Below, piece after piece: positions 956 to 50,285 of a DNA stretch of 64,000 bases (positions are counted from its first letter, which is position 1; every line of letters begins with the position of its first letter). Source of the stretch: Ezakiella coagulans. Its GTDB lineage: Bacteria > Bacillota > Clostridia > Tissierellales > Peptoniphilaceae. The notes under the pieces were generated by a model. The model searched no databases, was not told the DNA's origin, and saw only the letters and a program-made list of their open reading frames with translations. A program made the translations under genes and the position numbers. The stretch is from positions 257,534 through 321,533 of the forward strand of contig NZ_QEKV01000001.1 in NCBI RefSeq assembly GCF_003096635.1, read 5' to 3'.

Positions 956-1422
956 TGATAAGAAAATTTTTAAAAGATATTATACCGAAAAGTTTTTATG
1001 CTTATCTTTTGATACTCTTTTTCTTTCTTTATGTTACAAATGCACCGGAAACTTTAAACGCGAGCCTTTATTTTAGAGATGTGGAGATGACGGGCGATGA
1101 GTATCGCGATTTGCTTCATGTGATTCTTTACTACAAAGAGATTTGTAAAAATGAATTAAGTGAAGAAAATATTGAAAAAAAGTGGATTGGTCCTAAGAAC
1201 ACAGAGCTTTTCAGCAACGCATTCACGGACAAAGATGTATTTTTGGAACTTCGAAAGAAAAACATATTGAACCGAAAAAATCTACAAGAAATGACGGAAA
1301 TGATGGAAAAAGCGTGGTCACGTTATGACGGTGAAAAAATGTGTACAATAAGTTTTAATTACGATGGTTACGAGTTCAAGTTTCCATATTACCCTGATGA
1401 CAAAATTAGATATTTGAAATAA
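955..1422 (+). CDS. Membrane-anchored unknown protein, copy 2 of a duplicated pair
   Basis: 155 residues with one N-terminal membrane helix (residues ~14-30) and a soluble domain clearly homologous to the protein at 201-674: W-I-G-P, F-S-N-A-F-T-D, ELRKKNIL and the closing Y-D-G-Y-E-F-K-F-P can be aligned without large gaps. It starts within the stop codon of the preceding small gene. A terminator overlaps its stop codon, so the duplicated cassette ends here. The function is unknown. Tandem duplication with divergence would suit an antigenic or specificity function, but that is speculation. Confidence 0.7.
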   Translation: MIRKFLKDIIPKSFYAYLLILFFFLYVTNAPETLNASLYFRDVEMTGDEYRDLLHVILYYKEICKNELSEENIEKKWIGPKNTELFSNAFTDKDVFLELRKKNILNRKNLQEMTEMMEKAWSRYDGEKMCTISFNYDGYEFKFPYYPDDKIRYLK

Positions 1423-1453
1423 ATCTGTTGGAAAATCTCCGACAGATTTTTTG
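1421..1453 (+). terminator. Rho-independent terminator after the duplicated cassette
   Basis: A 12-bp stem (1421-1432 with 1438-1449, one G-U pair) with a 5-nt loop, followed by a T-rich run. It begins inside the stop codon of the upstream gene. Confidence 0.85.
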
Positions 1454-1627
1454 TTGTAAACATTTACAGCTTTAGTCATAACAAAACTATACATTATCGG
1501 GTATATTTAGTATATAAAGAGAATGTTTTTATTAAATTGGGTTTTATTTGTATAAATTTTACATAGTTTTAATATTTGAAGTTTATAATTTTATTGGATA
1601 TAAAATGTAATTTATATGAGGTGGAAT

Positions 1628-2530
1628 ATGAGAAAAATCGCAATCATAGATATCGGTTCAAACACAATAAGGATGTCGCTTTTCAATGTGGAGGGCGAAG
1701 AATTTTACGAGCTTTTAAACAAAAAGACCACGGCAGGGCTTGCAAGTTATGTCAAAAAGGGTTTTCTTTCGAGAGACGGGATTGAAAAGCTTCTTAGAAT
1801 TTTAAACGGTTTAATAAAGACGGCAAAGGTTTTGGGTTTTGAAGAGATAAAAATCTTTGCAACCGCATCTCTTAGAAATATTTTAAATATTGAAGAAGTG
1901 AAGGAAATTTTAAAGAGAGAGATTGACGAGCCGGTTGAGATTGTTTCGGGAGTTGACGAAGCCTATTTCGGTTATTTGGGAGTCAAGGAAAAGTACGATG
2001 TTTCAAGCGGACTTATCGTCGACATCGGCGGCGGTTCTACGGAAATCACCTCGATTGATGCGGGAAAGACGGTATACAACAATTCGATTCCGCTAGGTTC
2101 TTTAAATCTGTTTAAGAAATATAGCTCGGGGATTTTCATTCCGAAGAAAAGCATTAAAAGAGCGGAGAAATATGTCGTAAAAAAATTCGATCCGATTTAC
2201 AGCGAGAATTTAAAAAGCGACGAACTTTATGGAGTCGGCGGAACAATAAGAGCGGTTTCTAATGTGATTATGGAGATGAAGTCGCTCCAATCAAACAAGA
2301 TGATTAAGTCGGAGTTTGTTTTTGAGCTTTACGACAAATTGAAAAAGAAGGACAAAAAAACATATGAATATGTTTTGAAGGTTTCACCTGAAAGAGTTCA
2401 CACAATTTTTCCGGGGACTATAATTTTGATGGAAATTTTAAGGATGTCCGAAGCGAAGACGGTTTATGTCTCGAAGTTCGGCGTTAGAGAAGGAGTTTTG
2501 ACAAATTATTTGAGCGAGGGGAGAAAATGA
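1628..2530 (+). CDS. ppx: Ppx/GppA-family exopolyphosphatase
   Basis: 300 residues from the ATG at 1628, chosen because GAGGTGG at 1618-1624 precedes it; an in-frame ATG at 1616 overlaps that site. The actin-like ATPase fold signature is clear: an N-terminal D-I-G-S-N-T phosphate-binding loop and D-I-G-G-G-S-T-E near residues 138-145. The length matches the short Ppx/GppA phosphatases that lack the extra C-terminal domain. It hydrolyses terminal phosphates of polyphosphate or of pppGpp; sequence alone cannot choose between them. The stop overlaps the polyphosphate kinase start (ATGA), which favours a polyphosphate role in the cytoplasm. Confidence 0.9.
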   Translation: MRKIAIIDIGSNTIRMSLFNVEGEEFYELLNKKTTAGLASYVKKGFLSRDGIEKLLRILNGLIKTAKVLGFEEIKIFATASLRNILNIEEVKEILKREIDEPVEIVSGVDEAYFGYLGVKEKYDVSSGLIVDIGGGSTEITSIDAGKTVYNNSIPLGSLNLFKKYSSGIFIPKKSIKRAEKYVVKKFDPIYSENLKSDELYGVGGTIRAVSNVIMEMKSLQSNKMIKSEFVFELYDKLKKKDKKTYEYVLKVSPERVHTIFPGTIILMEILRMSEAKTVYVSKFGVREGVLTNYLSEGRK

Positions 2531-4698
2531 GCGATATAGATTTAAATGCGAGAGAAAATTTGTATAAGAAGTTACCGAAGATGGAAACCTACACCCAAAA
2601 CAGAGAACTGTCATGGCTAAAGTTCAACGAAAGAGTGCTTGAAGAGGCGACTATAAAAAATGTGCCGATTTACGAAAGACTCAAGTTCATTGCAATTTTC
2701 GTTTCGAATCTCAAGGAGTTTTTTATGGTTCGAATCGGAAGTCTTTCGGATCTTCAAAAACTTAAAGATCCGCCGCGCGATTCGCGCACGAATATGACGC
2801 CGGAAGAGCAACACGAAGCATGTTTGGATGCGGTGAGACGACTCTACGGTCTGAAGGACAATGTTTTTTTCGATGTGGAAAATGAGCTTAGAAAATACGA
2901 CATTCAAAATGTTTCGTTTGAGGAGCTCACGGAAGATGAAAAGAAGTATGTGCTGAAACTTTTCAAATCGCGAATTGAGCCGATTTTAAGTCCGATGGTA
3001 ATTGCAAGAAGTCACCCATTTCCATTTCTTGAAAACAATGAACTCTATATTACCTGCGAGCTGAAATCGCCTGTTGAAGAAAAAGGGACTTTCGGAATTT
3101 TAAATATTCCGGAAACGCTGCCGAAGTTTTTTAAGTTGGGCACCGAAGGCACGAGATATATTTTGACAGAAAATATAGTTTTAAATTTTTTGGACAAGCT
3201 CTATACGGAGTTTAAAATCGAGGACAAGTGCGTTATAAGCGCTACGAGAAACACTGACCTCACGATTGATGACGAGGAAGTCGGCGAGGAAGAGTATGTA
3301 ACGCAGATGAGAAATATTTTGAAAAAAAGAAAGAGACTCGGATGCGTAAGGATGACTTCTTCAAAAGAGCTGAGTCCGAGAATGAAAAAATTTTTTATGT
3401 CAAATCTCGACATAAAAGAAAACGAAATTTTTGTCACAAAAACTCCGCTCAATATGGACTATGCTTTTAAACTTTCGAGCATAATCGACGAGGAGACTTT
3501 GAAAAAAGTTTCATATCCTCCATTTAAAGGCGGCCTTAACAGTGCGATAAAACCGACAGAACCGATTATTTCGCAAGTGATGGACAAGGACTTTCTCTTT
3601 TTCTATCCGTACGACAGCATGGAGCAGTTTATTAAGATTTTGGAAGAGGCGGCGAACGACCCGGATGTTTTATCCATAAAGATTACGATTTACAGGCTCT
3701 CGAAAAATTCAAAAGTTGTTCAAAATCTTGTGCGCGCAGCGGAAAATGGAAAAGATGTGACGGTTCTTATGGAGCTTCGGGCGAGATTTGACGAAAAGAA
3801 CAATATCGACTACAGCGAAGAACTTTTCAATGCGGGCTGCAATGTTCTTTATGGTACGGAAGGTTTTAAAGTGCACTCTAAAATCTGCCTTATAACAAAA
3901 AGGGCGAAATCCGGAGAGCCTATTTATATAACGCAAATCGGAACGGGAAACTACAACGAGTCGACGTCGAAACTCTACACCGACATCAGCTTCGTCACAT
4001 CGGACAAAGCGATTGGAGAGGATGCAACGCAGTTTTTTAAGAATATGTGTCTCGGAAAACTTGACGGCGTTTACAATAAACTTTTGCAGTCGCCGTCAAC
4101 GGTAAGGTCATCGATCATAGATATGATTTTTGAGGAAATCGAAAAGGGAGCAAAGGGAAGAATCTTTATGAAGATGAACAGCTTCACTGACCGCGAAGTG
4201 ATTCGTGCGCTTGCGCTCGCATCGATGATGGGTGTGCAAATACGACTCATGATAAGGGGAATTTGCTCAATCGTTCCGGGCATTCAGAATGTGACGGAAA
4301 ATATAGAAGTTCGAAGCATTGTCGGAAGATTTCTCGAGCATTCGAGAATTTATAAATTCGGCGAGGGAAGTGATGAAAAAATCTACATCGGCTCCGCAGA
4401 TATGATGACTAGAAATACAATTCGAAGAGTCGAGATTTTGACTCCGATTGAAGCACCGTATTTAAAAAACAGACTGAACGGATTTATCGAAAGACAATGG
4501 AAAGACACCGAAAACGCAAGGCGTTTAAAAAACGACGGTCAATATGATATAATATATAGAGAAGTTTCTGAAGTGCCATTTAATTCGCACAAGAAAGAGA
4601 TGGAAATAAGCATGAACGGCAAATATGAGGAGCCGGTCAAGCTCAGTTTCATAGAGAAAATCACTAAATTTCTGAGAGATGAAGGGTGGATCAGATGA
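2527..4698 (+). CDS. ppk1: Polyphosphate kinase 1
   Basis: 723 residues, the usual length for PPK1, which reversibly polymerises the gamma-phosphate of ATP into polyphosphate. The N-terminal N-R-E-L-S-W-L-x-F-N motif is intact, as are both phospholipase-D-like catalytic histidines: H~450 in V-H-S-K and H~605 in L-E-H-S-R. The start overlaps the ppx stop by 4 bases (ATGA), and the stop overlaps the following ATPase start in the same way. Synthesis and breakdown enzymes are therefore made from one message. There is nothing odd in the protein itself. Confidence 0.96.
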   Translation: MSDIDLNARENLYKKLPKMETYTQNRELSWLKFNERVLEEATIKNVPIYERLKFIAIFVSNLKEFFMVRIGSLSDLQKLKDPPRDSRTNMTPEEQHEACLDAVRRLYGLKDNVFFDVENELRKYDIQNVSFEELTEDEKKYVLKLFKSRIEPILSPMVIARSHPFPFLENNELYITCELKSPVEEKGTFGILNIPETLPKFFKLGTEGTRYILTENIVLNFLDKLYTEFKIEDKCVISATRNTDLTIDDEEVGEEEYVTQMRNILKKRKRLGCVRMTSSKELSPRMKKFFMSNLDIKENEIFVTKTPLNMDYAFKLSSIIDEETLKKVSYPPFKGGLNSAIKPTEPIISQVMDKDFLFFYPYDSMEQFIKILEEAANDPDVLSIKITIYRLSKNSKVVQNLVRAAENGKDVTVLMELRARFDEKNNIDYSEELFNAGCNVLYGTEGFKVHSKICLITKRAKSGEPIYITQIGTGNYNESTSKLYTDISFVTSDKAIGEDATQFFKNMCLGKLDGVYNKLLQSPSTVRSSIIDMIFEEIEKGAKGRIFMKMNSFTDREVIRALALASMMGVQIRLMIRGICSIVPGIQNVTENIEVRSIVGRFLEHSRIYKFGEGSDEKIYIGSADMMTRNTIRRVEILTPIEAPYLKNRLNGFIERQWKDTENARRLKNDGQYDIIYREVSEVPFNSHKKEMEISMNGKYEEPVKLSFIEKITKFLRDEGWIR

Positions 4699-17263: not shown

Positions 17264-20044
17264 ATGTTACTATATATTTTACTTATTTTAAAACTTATTT
17301 TGTTTTACACGGAGACCAAGGTCCAATTTGCGCCGATGTTAGTTTTTTTGATGGACTTTGCGGTCATTAACGCGTTTTATATTCTTCTTAGAAAAAGAGG
17401 TAAGAAAGTCAGAGTCTTAAATTTTGTGCTTTATGCGATTTTAAGTTTTATCATGTTTGCGGATGTGGTTTATTTTTCATATTTCAACCGCATGCCGGTC
17501 ATAAGCGAGCTTGGACACGCGGGAAATCTCGGCGGCGTTACAGACGCCGTTAAGAGATTGTTTAAGATTAATAATCTCATTTTGATTTTGGATTTGCCGA
17601 TTACAGGCTATATTTATTTTAAGCGATATATCGAAAAGTTTTTAAAAAACAATTTTTTTGATATTTATATTCCAAGATATATTTCTCTCAGCGTTGTAGC
17701 TGCAGTTTTGATTGCGGCATTTGCATTTTCCGGCTCAAAGATGGCGTCGGCTTCAAAACTTTCGCTCTTCGGTTATCACATAAGAGATATTGCGGAAAGC
17801 GTTTCGAAGCCGGGCGAGCTACACGAGGACGATGTTTCTGAAAGCATTAATAATTTAAACAAAGACAAATATGAAAATGAATACACAGGTATTGCAAAAG
17901 GTGACAATTTTATTCATATTCAAATCGAAAGTTTGAATGATTTTGTGATTGGAAGGGAATACAACGGCGAGGAAATCACGCCGAACTTAAATCGATTGAT
18001 TGAGGAAACGGGAAGCATTTATTGCAAGAATTATATCGAAATGCTCGGAGCGGGAAACACTTCTGATGCGGAGTTCGTTAGTCTTCACTCTCTCTATCCG
18101 ACAATGAGGGCGCAGTCCTATGAGGCATATATCGACACATATCTCTACGGTCTTCCGAAAATTTTTGCTGACAACAACTATCTTGTAGATGCATTTCACG
18201 GCTACAAGAGAGACTTTTGGATGCGTGACAGAGTTTATCCGCACATCGGATTTGACAAGTTTTATGCCGAGGACGATTTTAATCTTGATGACACTGTCGG
18301 AATGGGACTTTCAGACGAAAGTTTCTTAAGACAATCTTTTGATATTATTTCAAAACAATCGGAACCGTTCTATTCATTTTTGATTACGCTATCGAGCCAC
18401 GTTCCGTACGAAATGCCGGATTATGAAGGCTCTTTAAGCGCACTCGACAAAGACAAGGATACATTTTTCTTTAGATATATAAACGCTGTTCATTATACGG
18501 ACAAGGCGCTTGGAGAATTTTTGAATAAGATAAAGGAAAACGGAATGTTTGACAGATCCGTTATAGCACTTTACGGCGACCACCACGGAATAACCGGCGT
18601 TGAAGCGGATGCGATGTTAAGAGTTGCAGAATTTATCGGAAAGAAATTCGATTTCGATGAGCTTATGAATGTGCCGTTAATCATTCATGTGCCACAACTA
18701 CAAGAAAAGAAAACAGTTGAATCGGTGAGATCACAGCTCGACTTTATGCCGACAATTTTAAATCTTTTCGGCATCGATGCGTCGAAATATATCACATTCG
18801 GACACGATATTTTTGATAAAAATCATCCATGTGTCGCTTTTCCGGAAGGATATATGAGAAAGGGATCGTTTATTTCCGACGATTATATATTCACGATGAA
18901 AAGAGACGGAATTTTTGAAAACGGAACTCTCGTAAATAGAAAGACGGGCGAGGAAACGCCGCCGAACGAAGAAGCAAAGAAACTCTACAAACAGGCGATA
19001 AAAGAAATCACTCTTTCAAATAAAATTTTGGACACAAACAGCATTGAAAAACTTATGGCTAAAGGCAACAAAGACGAGCTTACAAATGCTTATGAAAAGC
19101 CGTCAAATGCAGTTGTTGTCGAAACGAAAGACGAACTTGAAGGCGCGATTCAAAACGGATACAAATATTTCTATTTGACGCTCCATAAAACGCTTGACGA
19201 CTACTATGTCACAAATCCAAACGGCGAAAATATGAATTTCGAAGCGGCAAAAACGGGATATATTTCCCTTGGAGATGTGCTTGGAAAATACAAAAACTAT
19301 AAATTCATCGTAGACACAAAAGACCCACGTGAATTTGCATTTTTTGTAAAGACTGTCAGCGGAAATCATGACAGCCTTATAATAAAAGCGAATTCGAAAG
19401 ATGAGTATGAAGAAATTTTCTACAGGAAAAACGGATACAACATTCTTCTTGATGTTTCTGATTATACTGAAGACGAAGTTAAATCAATCAAACTCGGCAT
19501 GCCGGACTTATTAATTTACGGTGGAGATTTGACAGAATTTAAAGACCAAACATTCAGAAAATTTGGCGAAGAAAAAGAGGGAGAACTTGCAATAGTTCCT
19601 TTTGAAAGTATCGAAACGACCGATTCGAAAGCAGAGATAAAAACTGTGAGCGAAGAATTTAAAATTCCTGATGGCAATCTCGCAACAAGCCTCCAAGAAA
19701 TTTCCGAAAGGGCGGGCGATGAATTTGTTCCAATCAAGGTTTATTATGATGCAAATAGCGATTCAGTCACGACAAATCTAACGGACAGCAGTGACCCTGC
19801 AGAACTCTTTAAACTTATGGAAGAAAATAAAAATATAAAAATTTATTTAACCGCCGACGGCTCACAAGTTGAAATTATGAGGGCACTTCTAAAGCTGAAC
19901 CCTCCGAAAGACAGAATCATGGTTGAACTTATAACTCCGGGTCAAGTTTCATTTGTGACAAAAATGGGCTTTACAAATCTAGTTCTCGACCTTAATGTCG
20001 GTCCGAATGAACTCGAAGAGTTAGAACAAATTTATATGTATTAG
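17264..20044 (+). CDS. LTA-synthase-like protein with C-terminal degenerate GDPD-like region
   Basis: 926 residues, far longer than the ~600-650 of ordinary LtaS. Residues ~1-165 hold five membrane helices. The extracellular sulfatase-fold domain has the nucleophile Thr266 in G-N-T-S-D-A-E-F, a metal ligand in Q-I-E-S and G-D-H-H near 440. The last ~300 residues resemble a glycerophosphodiester phosphodiesterase barrel (a-x-x-n-G-Y-K-Y-F-Y-L-T-L, L-G-D-V-L, I-V-D-T-K, and a late M-G-F-T-N-L-V-L-D-L) but lack the H-R-G and E-x-D catalytic set. The synthase part would polymerise glycerol phosphate from phosphatidylglycerol outside the membrane. The tail may bind that polymer. It leads the operon with the MBOAT gene. 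Confidence 0.88.
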   Translation: MLLYILLILKLILFYTETKVQFAPMLVFLMDFAVINAFYILLRKRGKKVRVLNFVLYAILSFIMFADVVYFSYFNRMPVISELGHAGNLGGVTDAVKRLFKINNLILILDLPITGYIYFKRYIEKFLKNNFFDIYIPRYISLSVVAAVLIAAFAFSGSKMASASKLSLFGYHIRDIAESVSKPGELHEDDVSESINNLNKDKYENEYTGIAKGDNFIHIQIESLNDFVIGREYNGEEITPNLNRLIEETGSIYCKNYIEMLGAGNTSDAEFVSLHSLYPTMRAQSYEAYIDTYLYGLPKIFADNNYLVDAFHGYKRDFWMRDRVYPHIGFDKFYAEDDFNLDDTVGMGLSDESFLRQSFDIISKQSEPFYSFLITLSSHVPYEMPDYEGSLSALDKDKDTFFFRYINAVHYTDKALGEFLNKIKENGMFDRSVIALYGDHHGITGVEADAMLRVAEFIGKKFDFDELMNVPLIIHVPQLQEKKTVESVRSQLDFMPTILNLFGIDASKYITFGHDIFDKNHPCVAFPEGYMRKGSFISDDYIFTMKRDGIFENGTLVNRKTGEETPPNEEAKKLYKQAIKEITLSNKILDTNSIEKLMAKGNKDELTNAYEKPSNAVVVETKDELEGAIQNGYKYFYLTLHKTLDDYYVTNPNGENMNFEAAKTGYISLGDVLGKYKNYKFIVDTKDPREFAFFVKTVSGNHDSLIIKANSKDEYEEIFYRKNGYNILLDVSDYTEDEVKSIKLGMPDLLIYGGDLTEFKDQTFRKFGEEKEGELAIVPFESIETTDSKAEIKTVSEEFKIPDGNLATSLQEISERAGDEFVPIKVYYDANSDSVTTNLTDSSDPAELFKLMEENKNIKIYLTADGSQVEIMRALLKLNPPKDRIMVELITPGQVSFVTKMGFTNLVLDLNVGPNELEELEQIYMY

Positions 20045-20053
20045 GCGGCAGAT

Positions 20054-21442
20054 ATGGTTTTTTCAAGTTTATCATTTCTATTTTATTTTTTACCGACAAT
20101 ACTGTTTCTGTATTATATTTTGCCGAAAAAATTTAGATACGGGAGAAATTTCGTTCTTCTCATAGGCTCTTTATTCTTCTATTTTGTTGGAGAGCCAAAA
20201 GCGATAGTTGTGATGCTTCTTTCGATTTTTATAAATTATATTGGAGGTATTGCGGTAAATAGTGGAGGAGAAAAGCAAAGAAAAATTTCGCTCACGATTG
20301 TAGTGATATTAAATCTTACAATTCTCTTCTATTACAAATATCTGATGTTTATAGTTGGGAATCTTTCAAAGATTTTTGACTTCAGTGTTGAAACGAAAAG
20401 CATCTACATGCCGATTGGAATTTCCTTTTTCACATTTCAAGGTATGAGTTATGTGTTTGATGTTTATATGAAAAATGCGGAAGTTAAGAAAAATCCTTTG
20501 GATATAGCACTATATATTTCTCTTTTCCCTCAATTAATTGCAGGACCTATTGTTCGATATAAAACCGTTGCGGATGAAATAGACGGAAGAGTTGAAACGC
20601 TTGACTTATTCTCGACCGGTGTAATAAGATTTATAGTTGGACTTTCAAAAAAAGTATTACTTGCAAATAAATTTGGGATAATTGCTGATGAAATATTTAA
20701 ATTGAACGGCAACTATAATTTGAGTGTGCCTTTAAGTTGGTTCGGAGTTCTTATGTTTGCACTTCAGATATACTATGACTTCAGCGGATACTCGGATATG
20801 GCAATCGGTCTTGGGAAAATGTTCGGATTTAATTTTCTTGAAAACTTCGACTATCCATACATTTCAAAGAGCATAACGGAATTTTGGAGAAGGTGGCACA
20901 TGTCCCTCGGAACCTGGTTTAGAGATTATATCTATATACCGCTTGGCGGCAACAGAGTTTCCGTGCCGAGACATATTCTTAATATGTTTATTGTATGGTT
21001 TCTTACCGGATTTTGGCATGGTGCTTCGTGGAACTATATAATTTGGGGACTATACTTCTTTGTTTTTCTCGTAATTGAAAAATATGTCTTTGGAAATAAA
21101 TTTGAGAAAGTGCCGGAAATTTTCAGACATCTGTATGCATTAATAGTTATTCTTGTCGGATGGGTTATTTTTAAAGAGGAGAACAGCTTCTTACTTCTGA
21201 AATACCTAAAAGCTATGTTTAGCGTGGGACTGAAGCCGACAATTGGTGGAGTGACTTATTATTTAAAAGAATATTATATTGAAATTTTCTTGGGAATAAT
21301 TTTTTCTGCGAATATTTTAAAGGCATTTGAAAAAGGGAAAAAGACAATACCGGCAATCTCAATCTATTTTATACTTTTGATATTGTCGATTGTTTCTCTC
21401 TTCAGTAGTTCATACAATCCATTTATTTATTTTAGATTTTAG
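20054..21442 (+). CDS. MBOAT-family O-acyltransferase (AlgI/PatA-like)
   Basis: 462 residues, about ten membrane helices. The MBOAT core is visible: F-W-R-R-W-H-M-S-L-G-T-W-F-R-D-Y, Y-I-P-L-G-G-N-R, and the catalytic His in F-W-H-G-A-S-W. AlgI-type enzymes pass acyl, usually acetyl, groups across the membrane for transfer to a surface polysaccharide by a partner protein. The gene follows the LtaS-like gene by 9 bases and precedes a DHHW protein, the standard partner. O-acetylation of the polymer made by the LtaS-like enzyme is a reasonable inference. DltB of D-alanylation is a relative, but no dltACD genes are here. Confidence 0.9.
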   Translation: MVFSSLSFLFYFLPTILFLYYILPKKFRYGRNFVLLIGSLFFYFVGEPKAIVVMLLSIFINYIGGIAVNSGGEKQRKISLTIVVILNLTILFYYKYLMFIVGNLSKIFDFSVETKSIYMPIGISFFTFQGMSYVFDVYMKNAEVKKNPLDIALYISLFPQLIAGPIVRYKTVADEIDGRVETLDLFSTGVIRFIVGLSKKVLLANKFGIIADEIFKLNGNYNLSVPLSWFGVLMFALQIYYDFSGYSDMAIGLGKMFGFNFLENFDYPYISKSITEFWRRWHMSLGTWFRDYIYIPLGGNRVSVPRHILNMFIVWFLTGFWHGASWNYIIWGLYFFVFLVIEKYVFGNKFEKVPEIFRHLYALIVILVGWVIFKEENSFLLLKYLKAMFSVGLKPTIGGVTYYLKEYYIEIFLGIIFSANILKAFEKGKKTIPAISIYFILLILSIVSLFSSSYNPFIYFRF

Positions 21443-21451
21443 GAGATGCCG

Positions 21452-22606
21452 ATGAAAAAGAAAGATTTTTTTATAACAACAGGATTTCTCATGATTATTT
21501 TCGGAATGTGCTTTATGATTACATTTTTCAGAAATGAAAAAGGACTTCTCTATTTTGAAAATCGAAATATTAAGGAATGTCCGACTTTAAATTATGAAAA
21601 TGTTTTTGAAAATAATTACTTTGGAGATGTTGAAGAGCATTTGTCGGACTCTTTTAAACTCAGAAACAGAATTTTGAAATTTGATACATTTTTAAATCTT
21701 AAATTGTTGAAGCGACCGGTTGTGAATGGAATTTATAAATCAGATAAGCACTATATGACGCGTTGGCAAAGATGGTGGCCGTACGACTACAAAGAGGACC
21801 TCGAAAAAATGACATTAGGCTATAAAGGTCTTAACGAAGCATTGAAGGACAAGGGAATTTATTTTCTTTACGTAGGCGTGCCGGAGCACAGTTATGTATT
21901 TTCAGATGATTATCCGAAATATCTTTTAAACAAATATGAAGAATGGCACAACATTGAAAAAGATTTTTTTGCAGCACTCAATAAAAATAATATCTCAAAT
22001 ATAAAAATGAGCGAATTTATAAAAGATAAAGAAATGGAATACACCAAAACAGATCACCATTTTTCTTATATCGGTGCAAAAAATGTTTATGAAAATATAA
22101 TACAAAAGATAAATGAAAATACAGAATTTAAACTTGACGGCAATGTAGAACTTGTAAAGATGCCGGAACCGTTTAAGGGTTCATATTCAAGAAAACTCTT
22201 TTTTGTAGGTGGATATAACGACGACTATTACACCTACAACCCGGATTTTGAATTCGAAAGATTTGATGACGGAGAAAAAACTTTGAGCAAACTATTTTTT
22301 CCGGAAGAAAATAAATTTGACGGAGCGGTCGGATACGGTGTCTATATGAACGGAGATAAGGGTTTTACAAAAATTGCTACGCATAGAGAAAATTTGCCAA
22401 ATATTCTTGTTTATGGCGACTCTTTCACAAATCCTTTAGAAACGCTTCTTGTTAGAAATGCAAATAATTTTTATAGCTTTGATTTCAGATATCAAAAAAA
22501 TAAAACATTGACTGAAATCGTCGATGAATATAACCCGGACATTGTGATTTGCATAAGGGATAATTTGATGTATTTGAACAGAGAAGAAAATGGAATAGTA
22601 GAATAA
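21452..22606 (+). CDS. DHHW-family (AlgJ/AlgX-like) acetyltransferase partner
   Basis: 384 residues from the ATG at 21452, 6 bases after AGGAG (21441-21445); an in-frame ATG at 21446 touches that site. One N-terminal membrane anchor (residues ~8-26) is followed by a large external domain with T-D-H-H-F-S and a later Y-G-D-S-F-T, the SGNH-like Ser box and Asp-His pair of the family. The protein takes the acyl group delivered by the MBOAT partner and transfers it to the surface polymer. It closes the three-gene operon. Confidence 0.85.
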   Translation: MKKKDFFITTGFLMIIFGMCFMITFFRNEKGLLYFENRNIKECPTLNYENVFENNYFGDVEEHLSDSFKLRNRILKFDTFLNLKLLKRPVVNGIYKSDKHYMTRWQRWWPYDYKEDLEKMTLGYKGLNEALKDKGIYFLYVGVPEHSYVFSDDYPKYLLNKYEEWHNIEKDFFAALNKNNISNIKMSEFIKDKEMEYTKTDHHFSYIGAKNVYENIIQKINENTEFKLDGNVELVKMPEPFKGSYSRKLFFVGGYNDDYYTYNPDFEFERFDDGEKTLSKLFFPEENKFDGAVGYGVYMNGDKGFTKIATHRENLPNILVYGDSFTNPLETLLVRNANNFYSFDFRYQKNKTLTEIVDEYNPDIVICIRDNLMYLNREENGIVE

Positions 22607-44705: not shown

Positions 44706-45258
44706 GGTTAAGCAAGGACATATAAGTTATCCTGAAACTTTAAAGAGAGATTTGGATCAGGAAACAAGGCATGGATACGAAGTTGTTGACGTTTTGGATA
44801 ATAAGTTGCAACTTGAAAAGAGTGTCAAGACTTACAACTTTTTGATTCCGCAAAACAGCAAAGAACTTAGAGATTATTACAAGCAAAGCGGATACGGATA
44901 TGTTGAACTCTCTGTTAGAAAAAAATATATAAGAGCATTCGGAATTTCTTTTACAAAAGTAGAAAGACCGACAAGAAACAATGCAAACTATCTTCTCGTG
45001 AAGAGCATTCACAGAGAGCCTGTAAAATTCTACAAGGAGATGCTTCATGCACATCATGATGAAGAAACGAAAAAATTTCTTCCACTTACAATAATTTATG
45101 CAATTCTTTATGGAATAAATCTCATTATGCAACCGAGAGTTGTGAAACAAATTGGAATTACAGGATACTATATATTATCAGGAGTAATCATTGTGCTCTT
45201 GATTGTTGCACTCTATAATTTTTTAAGACACAAGCAATTTAAGGAAGACCTTGAATGA
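44695..45258 (+). CDS. Membrane protein with DUF2812-like N-terminal region, uncertain
   Basis: 187 residues from the ATG at 44695 (GGAGG at 44681-44685, 9 bases before), overlapping the FAD gene by 11 bases. The N-terminal ~110 residues are soluble, with a G-Y-E-V-V and a later G-Y-V-E-L. Two membrane helices follow. This resembles DUF2812 proteins, which have a similar soluble part and C-terminal helices, but the match is loose. It shares a 4-base overlap with the LtaS-like gene downstream, so it may assist that enzyme. Confidence 0.55.
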   Translation: MEFKVKQGHISYPETLKRDLDQETRHGYEVVDVLDNKLQLEKSVKTYNFLIPQNSKELRDYYKQSGYGYVELSVRKKYIRAFGISFTKVERPTRNNANYLLVKSIHREPVKFYKEMLHAHHDEETKKFLPLTIIYAILYGINLIMQPRVVKQIGITGYYILSGVIIVLLIVALYNFLRHKQFKEDLE

Positions 45259-47051
45259 TTTTAATGCTTTTAATATTAGTGAAGTTCTTTTACTTTTACA
45301 GCAAAGTAAACGTTCAAAAGAACTACATCTATACGGTTATATTTTCGACACTTTCAGTGTCGATTTTTACCATTGGGCTGAAACTTTTATCAATAAGAAC
45401 CGGGTTTGAGTGGTGGGCGATTGTTTATTATACCATTTCGATAGTCATGCTAATCGACGTAGTTTACTATAAGCATTTTAACCAACTGACAACAATAAAT
45501 CTTATAAAACAGATAAAGCATCTCTCGACTGTCGGTGATTCACTTGCCGTTTTGCTCGATTGGAGCATGCTCACTCTTGTACTTGATTTAGTGATAATTC
45601 CGTTTTTGCCGGAAAAAATAATAAGATTTATTATCAGTGGAATTGATATTAAAGTCATATTTCTCGTATTTTTAATTTTTATACTTGAGCTTTTATATTT
45701 CAACAAGAGCAAGCAAGTAGTAAAACAGGATTTGGTTTTATATCACGGCATCGACATTTTGGATTCTATCGGCATCGAGGCCGCACAAATAAAAAAAGAA
45801 GTCGATGAAAAAGAGCTTAAAAATTATATATATAAAACCGACAAGAAAGATAAACTATATGGAGTTGCTAAGGGAACGAACTTGATAGTTATTCAAGTGG
45901 AAGCACTTCAAAATTTCTTGTTTCAAAAAAAATATCGAGGTGTTGAGGTTGTTCCGAATCTAAAAAAATTTGCCGAAGACAAAAACAGTTTTTACTTTGA
46001 CAATATGTTTCAAATTATCGGACGCGGAAACACAAGTGACGCTGAGTTTGCAACACTTACATCACTTTATCCGCCGAGAAAGGCCCCTGTTTATATGGAC
46101 TTTCCCGACAGAGATTATTATTCACTTCCAAAAGCTTTTAAAGACATAGGATACACGACTATGATTTTTCATGGAAATGAAAAACACTATTATAACAGAA
46201 ATGAAATGTATCCGCGGCTTGGTTTTGATAAATTTTTTGGAAAAGAAGATTTTAAATTTGACGAAGAAAATAAAATTGGATTTGGAATAAATGATGAAGA
46301 TTTCTTGAGTCAGACTTTTGATTATATTATTGAAGAAGAAAAGAATGGACCGGTTTGTGCATTTATAATCACGCTTTCGAGCCATACGCCTTTTAATCTT
46401 CCGGACAAGTTCAATTCGAAAATTGCCGGAAATGAAGCGACAGATACAATGGTCGGAAGATATTTGAACGCGATAAATTATGCGGACAAAGCACTCGGAA
46501 TGTTCTTTGAAAAAATGGAAGCAAGTGGTCTTATGGACAGATCAACTGTTGTTTTGTACGGAGATCATTTTGCAATTTCTGCGGCGAACACAGTCGATGC
46601 CTCAGATATGGCAAATTTACTCGACTATGTTTACGGATATTCGTACGATGACATGATGAATATTCCGCTTGTTATACGAAACAAGAATTTTGAGCATAAA
46701 GTTTTTCAAAACACATGTTCACAAATGGATATTTTGCCAACACTTTTAAATCTCTACGGCATTCATAAAAGCAAGGGTGTGGTCTTTGGAAGCGATATAA
46801 TAAATAGACCGAAAAATATCTGCATGCCTTCAGGATATCTTGAAGAGGGTTCGTTTTTTACAAATGACGCATTCGTTCAAATGGATAGAAGCGGAGATGT
46901 AAAAGATGCTTCGGCTTTTAAAAAATTTACGCATATTCCAATCGATGCAAATAAATATGAAGAAACAAAAGAGAAAATTTTGCACGAAGAAAAGCTTTCA
47001 AAATATGCAATTTTATTTAATAAAATAACATCAGAAAGGATTGGTTTATAA
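45255..47051 (+). CDS. LTA-synthase-like sulfatase-fold transferase, short form
   Basis: 598 residues, about the normal LtaS size. Five N-terminal membrane helices, then an extracellular sulfatase domain. The nucleophile Thr260 is in G-N-T-S-D-A-E-F, a metal-binding Glu in Q-V-E-A, and G-D-H near the end of the domain (Y-G-D-H-F-A). The second His of the usual G-D-H-H is Phe here. Unlike the two other copies in the window it has no C-terminal extension. It should transfer glycerol phosphate or act on a lipid intermediate. It may be a primase or a modified form, given the H-to-F change. Confidence 0.88.
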   Translation: MILMLLILVKFFYFYSKVNVQKNYIYTVIFSTLSVSIFTIGLKLLSIRTGFEWWAIVYYTISIVMLIDVVYYKHFNQLTTINLIKQIKHLSTVGDSLAVLLDWSMLTLVLDLVIIPFLPEKIIRFIISGIDIKVIFLVFLIFILELLYFNKSKQVVKQDLVLYHGIDILDSIGIEAAQIKKEVDEKELKNYIYKTDKKDKLYGVAKGTNLIVIQVEALQNFLFQKKYRGVEVVPNLKKFAEDKNSFYFDNMFQIIGRGNTSDAEFATLTSLYPPRKAPVYMDFPDRDYYSLPKAFKDIGYTTMIFHGNEKHYYNRNEMYPRLGFDKFFGKEDFKFDEENKIGFGINDEDFLSQTFDYIIEEEKNGPVCAFIITLSSHTPFNLPDKFNSKIAGNEATDTMVGRYLNAINYADKALGMFFEKMEASGLMDRSTVVLYGDHFAISAANTVDASDMANLLDYVYGYSYDDMMNIPLVIRNKNFEHKVFQNTCSQMDILPTLLNLYGIHKSKGVVFGSDIINRPKNICMPSGYLEEGSFFTNDAFVQMDRSGDVKDASAFKKFTHIPIDANKYEETKEKILHEEKLSKYAILFNKITSERIGL

Positions 47052-47225: not shown

Positions 47226-47490
47226 GGCGCAGATGGGGAAGTAGCGGTTCCTTGTAACCTGTAATCCGCTATAGCAGGGTCTAAAACCGTTGGAGGTCAT
47301 TTATGGTCGAAAGCTGGTTATAGGCGTTGTGTTGATCATGGGGCCCTTTTGCAACGAACAAGTTTGGTGAAACTCGTCAGGTCGGGAACGAAGCAGCGAT
47401 AGTCAGAATTGTCGTGTGACATTAGGCAACTCTGTGGGAGCAAAGTTTATAATATGAGCACGGTTGTGAATGTTCGAATTCGGCTGCGCC
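47226..47490 (+). ncRNA. ffs: Signal recognition particle RNA, long Firmicute type
   Basis: About 265 nt. The start GGCGCAG pairs with CTGCGCC at the 3' end, closing the Alu-side stem. The middle has the universal SRP S-domain: GTGAAAC, then GTCAGGTCGGGAAC and AAGCAGC, the Ffh-binding loops. The 5' part has TGTAACCTG and TAGCAGGG, typical of Bacillus-like scRNA. It begins one base after tRNA-Ser(GGA) and ends in a terminator. Confidence 0.93.
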
Positions 47491-47537: not shown

Positions 47538-50285
47538 ATGATTTTATTATTTCTTATAATTTTTAAATTTATATTGTTCTATAATCTTACTCATGTCTCG
47601 TACAGTCCGCTTGTCGTACTGTCTGTTGACGTGTTTATTTTTTCTTGTTTTTATCTCATTAAAAACACAAAACTTAAAGGCACAAAGTCGCTTTATTTCG
47701 GCTTATATGTATTATTGTCGATCGTGATGTTTGCGGATGCAACATATTTTTCATATTTCAATCGACTTCCCGTAATAAAAGAAATGGGACACGCCGGCAA
47801 TCTCGGCGATGTTAAAGGGGCAGTTTTAATGTTATTAAATATAAAGAATTTGCTTTTTGTAATAGACTTGCCGGTTGTGATTTATTTAGCGATAAAAAGA
47901 AAGCTAAACTTCATCGATGAATTTCTTGTTCAAAAACTTAATATAAGAAGAATTATAATTCCGGCATTTTTTGTTTTAGTGACGGGAATTGTGCTTTTAG
48001 CAAATTTGAGCAAACTGAGCTCCGTGAAAAAACTTTCTCTCTTTTCATATCACACTCTTGATATTTTCGGAAAACTTGAAGACGAGAACTCTGAGATTGA
48101 CGTTTCAAAAGAGAATTTTATAAGCGATGACGAGAAAAACGAGTTCACAGGGATCGCAAAGGGCAAAAATTTTATTATGATTCAAGTCGAGAGCTTAAAC
48201 AATTTTCCAATCGGACGAAAATACGAGGGCGAGGAAATAACCCCGAATTTGAATCGACTGATTAAAGAAAAAGGAACTATTTATGCGAATGACTATTTTG
48301 AACTTTTGGGTGCGGGAAACACGTCCGACGCAGAGTTCGTCAGTCTTCACTCGATGTATCCTTCGATGAAAAACCCGAGTTATGAAGTTTATCTCGATTC
48401 ATATCTCTACGGTCTTCCTAAAATCTTCAAAGATTTCGGATATGATGTTGCAGCTTATCACGGCTACAAAAGAGACTTCTGGATAAGGGACAGAGCATAT
48501 CCTCATATTGGCATCGACAAGTTTTATGCGGAGGACAATTTTGATTTGTCGGATAAAATCGGAATGGGTCTTTCAGACAAAAGCTTTTTCAAACAGTCGG
48601 CAGAGATAATGAAGTCCAGTCAAAAGCAACCGTTCTTTTCATTTTTGGTTACTCTAACTTCTCACGTACCGTATGAGATGCCGGATGAAACGAAGAAGAT
48701 AAAAATAAAAAAAGAAGATGAGGGTTCGATTTTCGGGAACTACTTAAATGCTGTGAGATATACCGACGAAGCAATCGGAGAATTTATTGAAGAATTAAAA
48801 GAAAAGGGTCTTTATGACAATTCGGTCATTGCACTTTATGGCGATCACCACGGAATTTTAATGAATAATCCTGACGACAACAGACGAGTTGGAAATTTTG
48901 TCGGAAAAAAATTTGATTTCGATACAATGTTAAATATACCATTTATAATTCACATTGGCGGATATGACGGCACAAAAACTGTCGAAGGTGTGAGAAGTCA
49001 GCTTGATTTTGCACCGACAATTTTAAATCTTTTCGGCATAAGTAAGAAAAATTATGTGATGATGGGAACGGACATTTTATCAGACAAAAATCCTGGAGTT
49101 GTTTTTCCGCAAAGCTATCTCATAAGAGGTTCGTTTATAAACGACGATTACATTTTCCAAATGAAGCGTGACGGTATTTTTGAAAACGGTGAACTCAGAA
49201 GCCGAAAAACGGGCGAGGTCGTGGACCGCGAAAAGGCGAGAGAACTTTATAAGCGGGCATTAAAAGAAATTGATTATTCAAAATATGTGCTCGAAAATAA
49301 TCTTTTGGAGTCGATGCTTAAAGAGGGTAACACTGATGAAAGTCACGAAGTAAAAACAAATGTAAGCGTGCGAAATGCTGCTGAAATCAAAAATAAAACT
49401 GAGTTTGAAAGTGCGTTTAAAAAAGGATTTAGGACTTTCAGACTTGGTCTATTTAAAAGTACGGATAATTTTTACACGACATCAAAAGAATCCGGCGATT
49501 TGAAAGAATTAAAAACAGCAAATCCGGATTTGATGACTTTGGGTGATTTGGTTCGCGGCTACGACGAAGATGTTTCGTTTATAATTGACGCGGAGAACAC
49601 AAGAGAGATTGCGGACTATATTAGAAAAATGCCGGGACTATATAAAAATCTGATTTTAGCTGTGAGAAATCTTGAAGATTATGAATATGTTTCTGTAAGA
49701 CAAAATGGTTACCGGATTATGATTTCGGGCAATGAAATTGATGAGAATATGAAAGTTTCGATGTATGAGAACAACACGGAAATAATTTTTGAGAACGCAA
49801 ATGATGAAAAGCTCAAAGAGCATACGTATTTTATGGACAAAGAGCCTAAGATATATTCAATCGAAGAAGTGGATAAGTTTGAAAATAAATCCGATGAGCC
49901 GAAAGAGGCAAAAATTCAAAAGATAAATTTCGAGGATGAAAACTCTGAAAATTATTTTAAGAAAATTGTTGCAAACTACAATTATGAAACCGAATCTATT
50001 GAAATTGATGACGATGAATTAAAGACAATTGAAGATTTAAAGAATTATATGTCGGATGAAAAAGTAAAAGTTGCTTTTGAGTCTACAGATCAGGCGGTTC
50101 ATAATTTAAGAACTTTGAAAGAACAGAATTTCCCTCTTGAAAGAATAGTTGCGATTTTAAACAGTTACGATGAGGCACAATATGTATATAAACTTGGGTT
50201 TAGTGGAATTTCATTCAGCGACAAGATGAACGATGAAGAAATTTTGGAAGCAGTTAAGCTTGTGGGTGGATTTCTTTCCAAGTGA
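47538..50285 (+). CDS. LTA-synthase-like protein with C-terminal degenerate GDPD-like region (second copy)
   Basis: 915 residues from the ATG at 47538, with TTGGAGG at 47528-47534; a start near 47409 would lie inside the SRP RNA. Five membrane helices, then the sulfatase domain with nucleophile Thr262 in G-N-T-S-D-A-E-F, metal Glu in Q-V-E-S and G-D-H-H. The last ~290 residues align in order with the tail of the protein at 17264 (L-G-D-L, F-I-I-D-A, and a late L-G-F-S-G-I-S-F-S). This is the same GDPD-like region without its catalytic residues. The gene starts 10 bases after a terminator, so it needs read-through or a promoter within the RNA gene. Confidence 0.88.
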   Translation: MILLFLIIFKFILFYNLTHVSYSPLVVLSVDVFIFSCFYLIKNTKLKGTKSLYFGLYVLLSIVMFADATYFSYFNRLPVIKEMGHAGNLGDVKGAVLMLLNIKNLLFVIDLPVVIYLAIKRKLNFIDEFLVQKLNIRRIIIPAFFVLVTGIVLLANLSKLSSVKKLSLFSYHTLDIFGKLEDENSEIDVSKENFISDDEKNEFTGIAKGKNFIMIQVESLNNFPIGRKYEGEEITPNLNRLIKEKGTIYANDYFELLGAGNTSDAEFVSLHSMYPSMKNPSYEVYLDSYLYGLPKIFKDFGYDVAAYHGYKRDFWIRDRAYPHIGIDKFYAEDNFDLSDKIGMGLSDKSFFKQSAEIMKSSQKQPFFSFLVTLTSHVPYEMPDETKKIKIKKEDEGSIFGNYLNAVRYTDEAIGEFIEELKEKGLYDNSVIALYGDHHGILMNNPDDNRRVGNFVGKKFDFDTMLNIPFIIHIGGYDGTKTVEGVRSQLDFAPTILNLFGISKKNYVMMGTDILSDKNPGVVFPQSYLIRGSFINDDYIFQMKRDGIFENGELRSRKTGEVVDREKARELYKRALKEIDYSKYVLENNLLESMLKEGNTDESHEVKTNVSVRNAAEIKNKTEFESAFKKGFRTFRLGLFKSTDNFYTTSKESGDLKELKTANPDLMTLGDLVRGYDEDVSFIIDAENTREIADYIRKMPGLYKNLILAVRNLEDYEYVSVRQNGYRIMISGNEIDENMKVSMYENNTEIIFENANDEKLKEHTYFMDKEPKIYSIEEVDKFENKSDEPKEAKIQKINFEDENSENYFKKIVANYNYETESIEIDDDELKTIEDLKNYMSDEKVKVAFESTDQAVHNLRTLKEQNFPLERIVAILNSYDEAQYVYKLGFSGISFSDKMNDEEILEAVKLVGGFLSK

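Follow-up and report, generated by a model that had tools for sequence, protein, structure and literature searches.

A predicted lipoteichoic acid synthase of Ezakiella coagulans with a degenerate GDPD-derived tail, and its mirror-image relative

The DNA analyzed here is a stretch of 64,000 nucleotides from Ezakiella coagulans (contig NZ_QEKV01000001.1, positions 257,534 to 321,533; below "the window", with positions counted from its first letter). At 17264-20044 it contains a gene for a predicted lipoteichoic acid (LTA) synthase, LtaS, whose last ~315 residues follow the LtaS part and are derived from a glycerophosphodiester phosphodiesterase (GDPD) without its catalytic residues. What the evidence supports best is the conversion of a bifunctional polymerase/phosphodiesterase to a polymerase with a pseudo-GDPD module. 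The architecture, the predicted fold, the homology, the loss of residues and its recurrence, the constraint on the tail and the mirror-image paralogue were all obtained by computation and are described in turn.

The synthase and its tail

The open reading frame (ORF) was confirmed at 17264-20044 (+) and encodes 926 residues with no internal stops. The parts of the gene are the following, pLDDT being the predicted local distance difference test score of the model described below:

17264..20044, + strand: whole gene (926 aa and stop codon), coding for the LTA synthase and its GDPD-derived tail
17264..17743, + strand: N-terminal membrane region, residues 1-160 (hydropathy; the LtaS profile starts at residue 37)
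17849..19033, + strand: extracellular LtaS catalytic domain, residues ~196-590 (profile matches, alignment, active-site residues)
19097..19618, + strand: degenerate compact GDPD-type TIM barrel, predicted, residues ~612-785 (profile alignment, predicted model, fold search)
19622..19690, + strand: linker, residues ~787-809 (pLDDT < 50 at tail residues 188-201, equal to 787-800)
19691..20041, + strand: second putative GDPD-derived unit, residues ~810-926 (profile match; four beta/alpha units in the model)

The NCBIfam LtaS model covers residues 37-591 with 306.9 bits (E 2.9e-91), Pfam Sulfatase covers residues 215-504 with 134.4 bits, and five solved LtaS-family sequences match the protein with E-values of 8e-63 to 3e-60. 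The NCBIfam score falls below the equivalog cut-off of 970 bits; since five other fusions with intact LtaS score likewise under it (222 to 352 bits), this cut-off marks a narrower equivalog and not the wider LtaS family. By alignment with solved LtaS, E222, T266, H312, R321, H379, D439 and H440 are in place, and the roles of all but T266 are presumably those of their LtaS counterparts. The nucleophile of LtaS is a threonine, T300 in S. aureus (PMC10865820, partial text). The LtaS residues are intact in all seven Ezakiella fusions, one of which has E for the D in the region of H317. Type II LTA synthases possess five N-terminal membrane helices. An earlier note on this DNA had described a complete LtaS part with five helices: Thr266 and the active-site residues are present, and four clear hydrophobic segments (residues 2-20, 24-42, 51-69 and 140-158) rise above the hydropathy threshold, while a fifth, though plausible, was not detected. 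Judged from its sequence, the protein is a type II LTA synthase with intact catalytic residues, for which polymerizing activity is predicted. It resembles the LtaS-type synthases of known structure (PDB 2w5q, 2w8d, 4uoo) in its N-terminal membrane region and its sulfatase-fold ectodomain with Thr nucleophile and metal ligands, but the matches to solved LtaS end at focal residues 582-604, where the tail begins. Among the sequences matching the full-length family alignment, the three best with a name are Ezakiella records with 57, 42 and 38% identity, and relatives of the same genus carry the same kind of gene.

The extra region, given earlier as about 300 residues, is indeed of this size. For the focal tail itself, no Pfam or NCBIfam match was found at E ≤ 1, GDPD (PF03009) included, whereas all six LtaS-fused tails of the order in alignment A3, two of them from the ~660-residue mirror-type proteins described below, match Pfam GDPD at E ≤ 1 (best 4.9e-13). 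A profile built from the seven Ezakiella tails was compared with a profile of LtaS-fused GDPDs using hhalign. The first part of the tail aligns to positions 33-182 of the fused-GDPD profile with a score of 40.1 and the second part to positions 97-184 with a score of 68.1; 200 column shuffles each gave maxima of 20.7 and 21.3, and reversed profiles gave 12.3 and 13.2, respectively. According to these scores, both parts are homologous to GDPD beyond chance. Since positions 97-182 are matched twice, the tail contains a GDPD unit together with part of another one. The single GDPD-like barrel proposed earlier is accordingly right as to its derivation, but it had merged a complete barrel with a second unit, and the motif G-F-T-N-L-V-L-D-L, assigned to a late strand of the barrel, is located in this second GDPD-derived unit. 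When PDB sequences were searched with the tail profile, a single match at chance level (E 1) was obtained, and no relative turned up among viral contigs scanned with the tail.

The alignment used for modeling the fold consisted of just the seven Ezakiella tails and included no intact GDPD, and the model has a mean pLDDT of 85.1 and a predicted template modeling score of 0.75. An alignment-free prediction was poor (pLDDT 50.4) and was not used. Foldseek against the PDB returned 11 chains from 7 entries at E ≤ 1e-3, all of the GDPD family, with modest TM-scores over the query (0.21-0.40) and with five of the 11 chains belonging to 4r7o at a root-mean-square deviation (rmsd) of ~20 Å. VIA-align 2 re-examined Foldseek's own candidates, with rows mostly covering model residues 10-188, and paired tail residues ~13-185 with GDPD chains end to end; the best match was the GDPD 1o1z (Z 12.3, rmsd 3.4, 169 aligned). 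Thirty of the first 32 rows (Z 10.3-12.3) are titled GDPD, GDPD-domain or GDPD-like phospholipase D, and two are titled beta-1,3(4)-glucanase (7ww4 and 7wwc, Z 11.2), the classification being by title only. Other TIM barrels appear from Z 10.1 down, hence the GDPDs lead by ~1 to 2 Z units. The best-ranked named matches from the viral library are mostly GDPDs. The second unit (tail 211-327) was modeled as a half-barrel of beta/alpha units. In the model, the first unit (~612-785) is a complete compact TIM barrel of the GDPD type; a non-TIM fold or a clear match to another family had been named beforehand as the outcome speaking against a GDPD-like tail, and neither was obtained.

GlpQ of B. subtilis has His43, His85, Glu70, Asp72 and Glu152 together with Ca2+ (PMC7086022, partial text). 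In the profile alignment, Tyr637 of the focal tail stands at the place of the GDPD Glu and Thr639 at that of the Asp, the catalytic His has no counterpart and the third metal ligand has no reliable placement. Across the seven Ezakiella tails the Glu column reads YSYKKRK and the Asp column TDVNNGK, while 19 intact relatives have H 19, E 19, D 19, H 18 and D 19 in the catalytic columns. The loss of catalytic positions suspected earlier was therefore confirmed for Glu, Asp and His. Compared with GDPD/GlpQ proteins (PF03009; PDB 1o1z, 5t9b, 2oog), the focal tail has the same type of TIM barrel, as predicted, and profile homology via the fused relatives, but it is devoid of the catalytic His, Glu and Asp and of a Pfam match, its barrel is shortened to ~175 residues and a second partial unit is added.

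Three states of the fusion and a mirror-image protein

In total, 245 loci were scanned with the fused-GDPD profile (E < 1e-4) and 95 ORFs matched; for tables and trees, ORFs were collapsed by identical C-terminal 100-120 residues. LtaS and the GDPD residues H-E-D-H are both intact in 11 of the 95, plus one in which the second His is Thr. LtaS is intact and the GDPD residues are lost in 37 (35 full, 2 cut), where "lost" often means that the profile is unaligned at this place, the actual residues being given by the MAFFT alignment. The LtaS residues are lost and GDPD is intact in 9, both are lost in none, and two more rows are cut within LtaS. The other 35 have no LtaS match; H-E-D-H is present in 32 of these, and the three exceptions are one contig-cut fragment and two ORFs in which only the first His is not aligned. 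As the profile was made from intact domains, dead stand-alone GDPDs are under-counted and the 32 of 35 is no fair test. Six more Ezakiella dead-tail fusions, which the profile does not reach, stand outside this table.

Fusions with both active sites intact occur in the family and order of Ezakiella (e.g., L010, L011, L015, L198-L204). They have the domain order of the focal protein and differ from it in that the GDPD residues H, E, D, H, D and K are kept; those of the same family group with Ezakiella on the LtaS tree. The profile search of related genomes, which the earlier note had suggested as a check, found fused architectures across the order, intact as well as dead. The fused-GDPD profile matched in 57 of 249 order genomes, 26 of 391 genomes of the class sample and 8 of 398 of the phylum sample (overlapping sets); among the class- and phylum-sample loci outside the order which passed the threshold, an LtaS match was found in L231 only. 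The Ezakiella tail profile matched in 12 of 130 family genomes, with near-full-length matches in 7 proteins from 5 genomes, all of them Ezakiella, and the reading frames of all 7 copies are open. The second fusion of the window is one of the dead-tail type:

47538..50285, + strand: fusion paralogue, intact LtaS with degenerate GDPD-derived tail (an alternative TTG start at 47409 gives 958 aa)

The reverse pattern is found in P0002 (L207:4701-6677), a protein of 659 residues encoded on contig 12 of the window's genome. It has the domain order of the focal protein, and a single hydrophobic N-terminal segment (residues 4-22) suggests that it is probably secreted. Profile matches to its LtaS-like part are weak (Pfam Sulfatase 18.1 bits, cut-off 25; NCBIfam LtaS E 2.4e-13) and the catalytic residues of this part are missing, whereas its C-terminal GDPD, at 22.5 bits just below the Pfam cut-off of 23.6, keeps H, E, D, H, D and K. 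Such mirror-type proteins are present in all five Ezakiella genomes with a dead-tail fusion; a sixth Ezakiella genome (71% complete) has the mirror-type protein and not the dead-tail fusion. One GDPD over the Pfam cut-off is encoded in the window's genome, a stand-alone frame of 237 residues (C2:215734-216390).

Trees were of a quick kind with support from the Shimodaira-Hasegawa-like approximate likelihood ratio test only; they have several long branches, some plain LtaS are placed among fused ones, and rows truncated at the 5' end by a contig border were excluded. A first tree comprised 69 LtaS domains; the Ezakiella fusions, seven in number, form one clade (100) within a group of 14 (97), which also holds four intact or, in one case, nearly intact fusions of the same family, one dead tail of this family and two plain LtaS. 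A second LtaS tree was restricted to the 54 full fused rows (42 dead, 12 intact). There, the seven Ezakiella and five same-family fusions form one group (99.7) and the distribution of dead and intact tails needs at least 5 changes. A single clade of all 42 dead rows was rejected (approximately unbiased test, p-AU 8e-47). Judged from these trees, the loss of GDPD residues beside an intact LtaS is more than one event. The GDPD tree was limited to matches at E ≤ 1e-15 and contains three dead-tail rows, the Ezakiella dead tails being too diverged for inclusion; a single group (96) unites the fused domains of the same family (9 mirror-type, 4 intact-intact, 1 dead), so that the mirror-type GDPDs group with those of the fusions. 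From the groupings on both kinds of tree, the simplest origin for the dead-tail and the mirror form of Ezakiella would be bifunctional fusions within their own family, and we infer the order of ancestry of the fusion forms from this.

Several further architectures were seen. Four Clostridia metagenome-assembled genomes (L099, L101, L104, L105) encode LtaS with a weakly GDPD-like tail of ~220 residues (E 1e-5 to 2e-8), with a second LtaS of ~660 residues adjacent in L101, L104 and L105. In two genomes of one genus, a GDPD with intact residues is joined to S-layer-homology repeats (L064:1258-2739, L199:5936-7354); the gene is located ~5 kb from an intact LtaS-GDPD fusion and its GDPD nests among the fused ones.

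Constraint on the tail and its possible role

The ratio of non-synonymous to synonymous substitution rates (dN/dS) was determined for pairs of related proteins. For L004/L005, the closest Ezakiella pair, it is 0.083 in the LtaS ectodomain, 0.10 in tail unit 1 and 0.15 in unit 2. Six dead-tail pairs of other lineages have a tail dN/dS of 0.10-0.25 and a seventh (L007/L008) has 0.41, compared with 0.045-0.12 for LtaS in the same seven pairs. The focal pair L001/L002 is saturated in unit 1 and nearly so elsewhere, with 0.16 in unit 2. The tail of the intact-intact pair L203/L204 gives 0.058. For the mirror-type pair L030/L060, values of 0.17 for the ruined LtaS part and 0.075 for GDPD were obtained, and for L070/L074 0.195 and 0.196, the synonymous sites being near-saturated. 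Tail values below 1 and above those of LtaS mean that dead tails are constrained, though less than LtaS; most dead tails tested are under purifying selection, which is weaker than that on LtaS.

In the largest dead clade (n=21), the metal-ligand Asp, present in 19 of 19 intact domains, is replaced by Arg (17) or Lys (4) in every member, and the Gln of the QIY motif, likewise found in 19/19 intact domains, is Glu in 20 of the 21. The members of this clade were chosen manually on the tree. Two further dead-tail rows, L027 and the copy of L172 at 1115-3526, were missed by the tail-boundary rule and are absent from this comparison; both have Arg at the metal-ligand column. Such a uniform replacement in the pocket is hard to explain by random decay.

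The following history is proposed. The ancestor would have been a fusion of LtaS and GDPD in which both active sites were intact and which was thus bifunctional, and its jobs would have been divided between the Ezakiella paralogues. In the membrane-bound form, i.e., the focal gene and its paralogue, the polymerase would have been retained, while the phosphodiesterase residues disappeared and a second GDPD-derived unit was added; the ~660-residue, probably secreted form would have kept the phosphodiesterase residues and lost those of the polymerase. The dead barrel may then act as a non-catalytic extracellular module beside the polymerase which tunes LtaS, with the nascent polymer, the lipid starter, phosphatidylglycerol or a wall partner as candidate ligands. 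The dead tail was most likely retained for a role in binding or regulation, although we infer both ligand and function. In S. aureus, LtaS processing has been linked to the starter lipid (PMC10865820, partial text), which renders an extracellular ligand-sensing module plausible. B. subtilis GlpQ cuts wall teichoic acid and not intact LTA (PMC7086022, partial text), so that LTA is only a candidate substrate even for the intact fused GDPDs. The earlier idea of a relative of the enzyme that cuts the product of the synthase thus stands for the relationship to GDPD, but not for product cutting, which is not established. Altogether, the conversion of a bifunctional synthase/phosphodiesterase to a polymerase with a pseudo-GDPD, likely a module tuning LtaS through a glycerophosphodiester ligand or a wall partner, is given slightly better than even chances.

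Several results weigh against this proposal. Plain LtaS relatives nest among fused ones, hence the tail can be missing. The tails evolve faster than LtaS (identity in the focal pair 49-50% vs 68%) and L025/L026 reach a dN/dS of 0.24 and 0.65 in the tail units, the latter value being the adverse one. The Glu and Asp columns vary in Ezakiella, which indicates no conserved replacement in the focal pocket, and the swap of Asp to Arg/Lys and Gln to Glu is a pattern of the largest dead clade that does not hold for the 12 other dead tails compared or for Ezakiella. Even in this clade, the Asp and Gln columns come only 24th and 14th when all 208 are ranked by conservation, and further columns of the active site are found far down (Asp72 127th, that of Lys 206th). 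Direct profile comparison of tail units 1 and 2 gave no similarity (probability 2.6), so a partial duplication is suggested just by the overlapping GDPD positions which both units match; it is one way in which we suppose the second unit arose. Finally, a general rule that a dead tail is accompanied by an intact GDPD partner was rejected: it holds in 5/5 Ezakiella genomes, but among the order's 30 dead-tail genomes outside Ezakiella, only 4 (G157, G196, G213, G214) also showed an intact domain of the fused-GDPD subfamily.

The faster evolution of the tail, the variable pocket positions in Ezakiella and a fold kept while catalytic residues are lost would also be expected if the tail were a mere spacer or structural brace of the LtaS ectodomain, acting on height above the membrane, stability or protection from processing and binding no ligand. 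This explanation survives best among the alternatives and is nevertheless rather unlikely: in the largest dead clade, charges in the pocket are swapped uniformly (R/K 21/21, E 20/21), which suggests that a pocket is kept there, and the existence of intact relatives suggests that the ancestral domain was more than a spacer. It is improbable that the tail is a functionless, decaying relic. Lost catalytic residues, a constraint weaker than that on LtaS and the existence of plain LtaS relatives fit decay, but dN/dS is below 1 in every computable tail comparison (0.10 to 0.65; one saturated), the frames are open in 7/7 Ezakiella copies, dead tails are kept in several families and the second unit was gained, not lost. 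Hardly credible is a hydrolase with a different catalytic set, for which the GDPD-type barrel and the invariant polar residues of the seven tails, K642, D645, N723 and S741 among them (whole-protein numbering), might speak, because the Glu/Asp columns are unconserved, the catalytic His has no counterpart in the profile alignment and the third metal ligand cannot be located reliably.

An extension of the proposed conversion is more tentative and, in our view, doubtful. Several independent conversions might have turned a product-trimming hydrolase into a dead chain reader which sets LTA length or passes the chain on, synthesis and trimming being split in Ezakiella between two reciprocally inactivated copies of one bifunctional enzyme, with the cutting activity surviving in the secreted mirror-image paralogue.

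Neighboring genes and implications

At 20054-22606 of the window, a gene for an MBOAT acyltransferase starts 9 bases after the focal gene and is followed by an AlgX/DHHW-like gene. The MBOAT protein matches the DltB profile with 139.7 bits (cut-off 375), and both genes may act as a pair in the acylation of a polymer. In the window's genome, no match to DltA exceeding the cut-off was found; DltA profile matches below it are located in very long frames (2067 and 1457 residues) at C2:66771-77597, which may be a nonribosomal peptide synthetase cluster. Neighbors of the MBOAT/AlgX type are not beside the fused genes in L087 (the closest orthologue), L089, L213 and L214, as read from ORF starts. As the neighbors differ at these four other Ezakiella fusions, an operon meaning was set aside. 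One further LtaS gene is found in the window, and at the corresponding place the relative G004 has two in-frame stops:

45255..47051, + strand: plain LtaS paralogue, 598 aa, without tail, just upstream of the second fusion

No report of an LtaS-GDPD fusion was found in the open-licence PMC literature, for part of which titles and abstract starts were the basis, and this is weak evidence of absence. LtaS and GDPD are both known families; what appears to be new is their fusion, its repeated inactivation on one side and the mirror-image pair.

How the chain length and placement of LTA are set is only partly understood. For S. aureus, LTA length has been proposed to be under the control of the starter lipid, and septal recruitment or limitation of LtaS is described as not elucidated (PMC10865820, partial text). 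A synthase with a built-in phosphodiesterase which was repeatedly turned into a dead but preserved module would point to a direct link between making the chain and reading or trimming it. The reciprocally inactivated pair within one genome would be a clean example from nature of how the two tasks of a bifunctional enzyme are divided, and it offers matched proteins for probing the role of each half.

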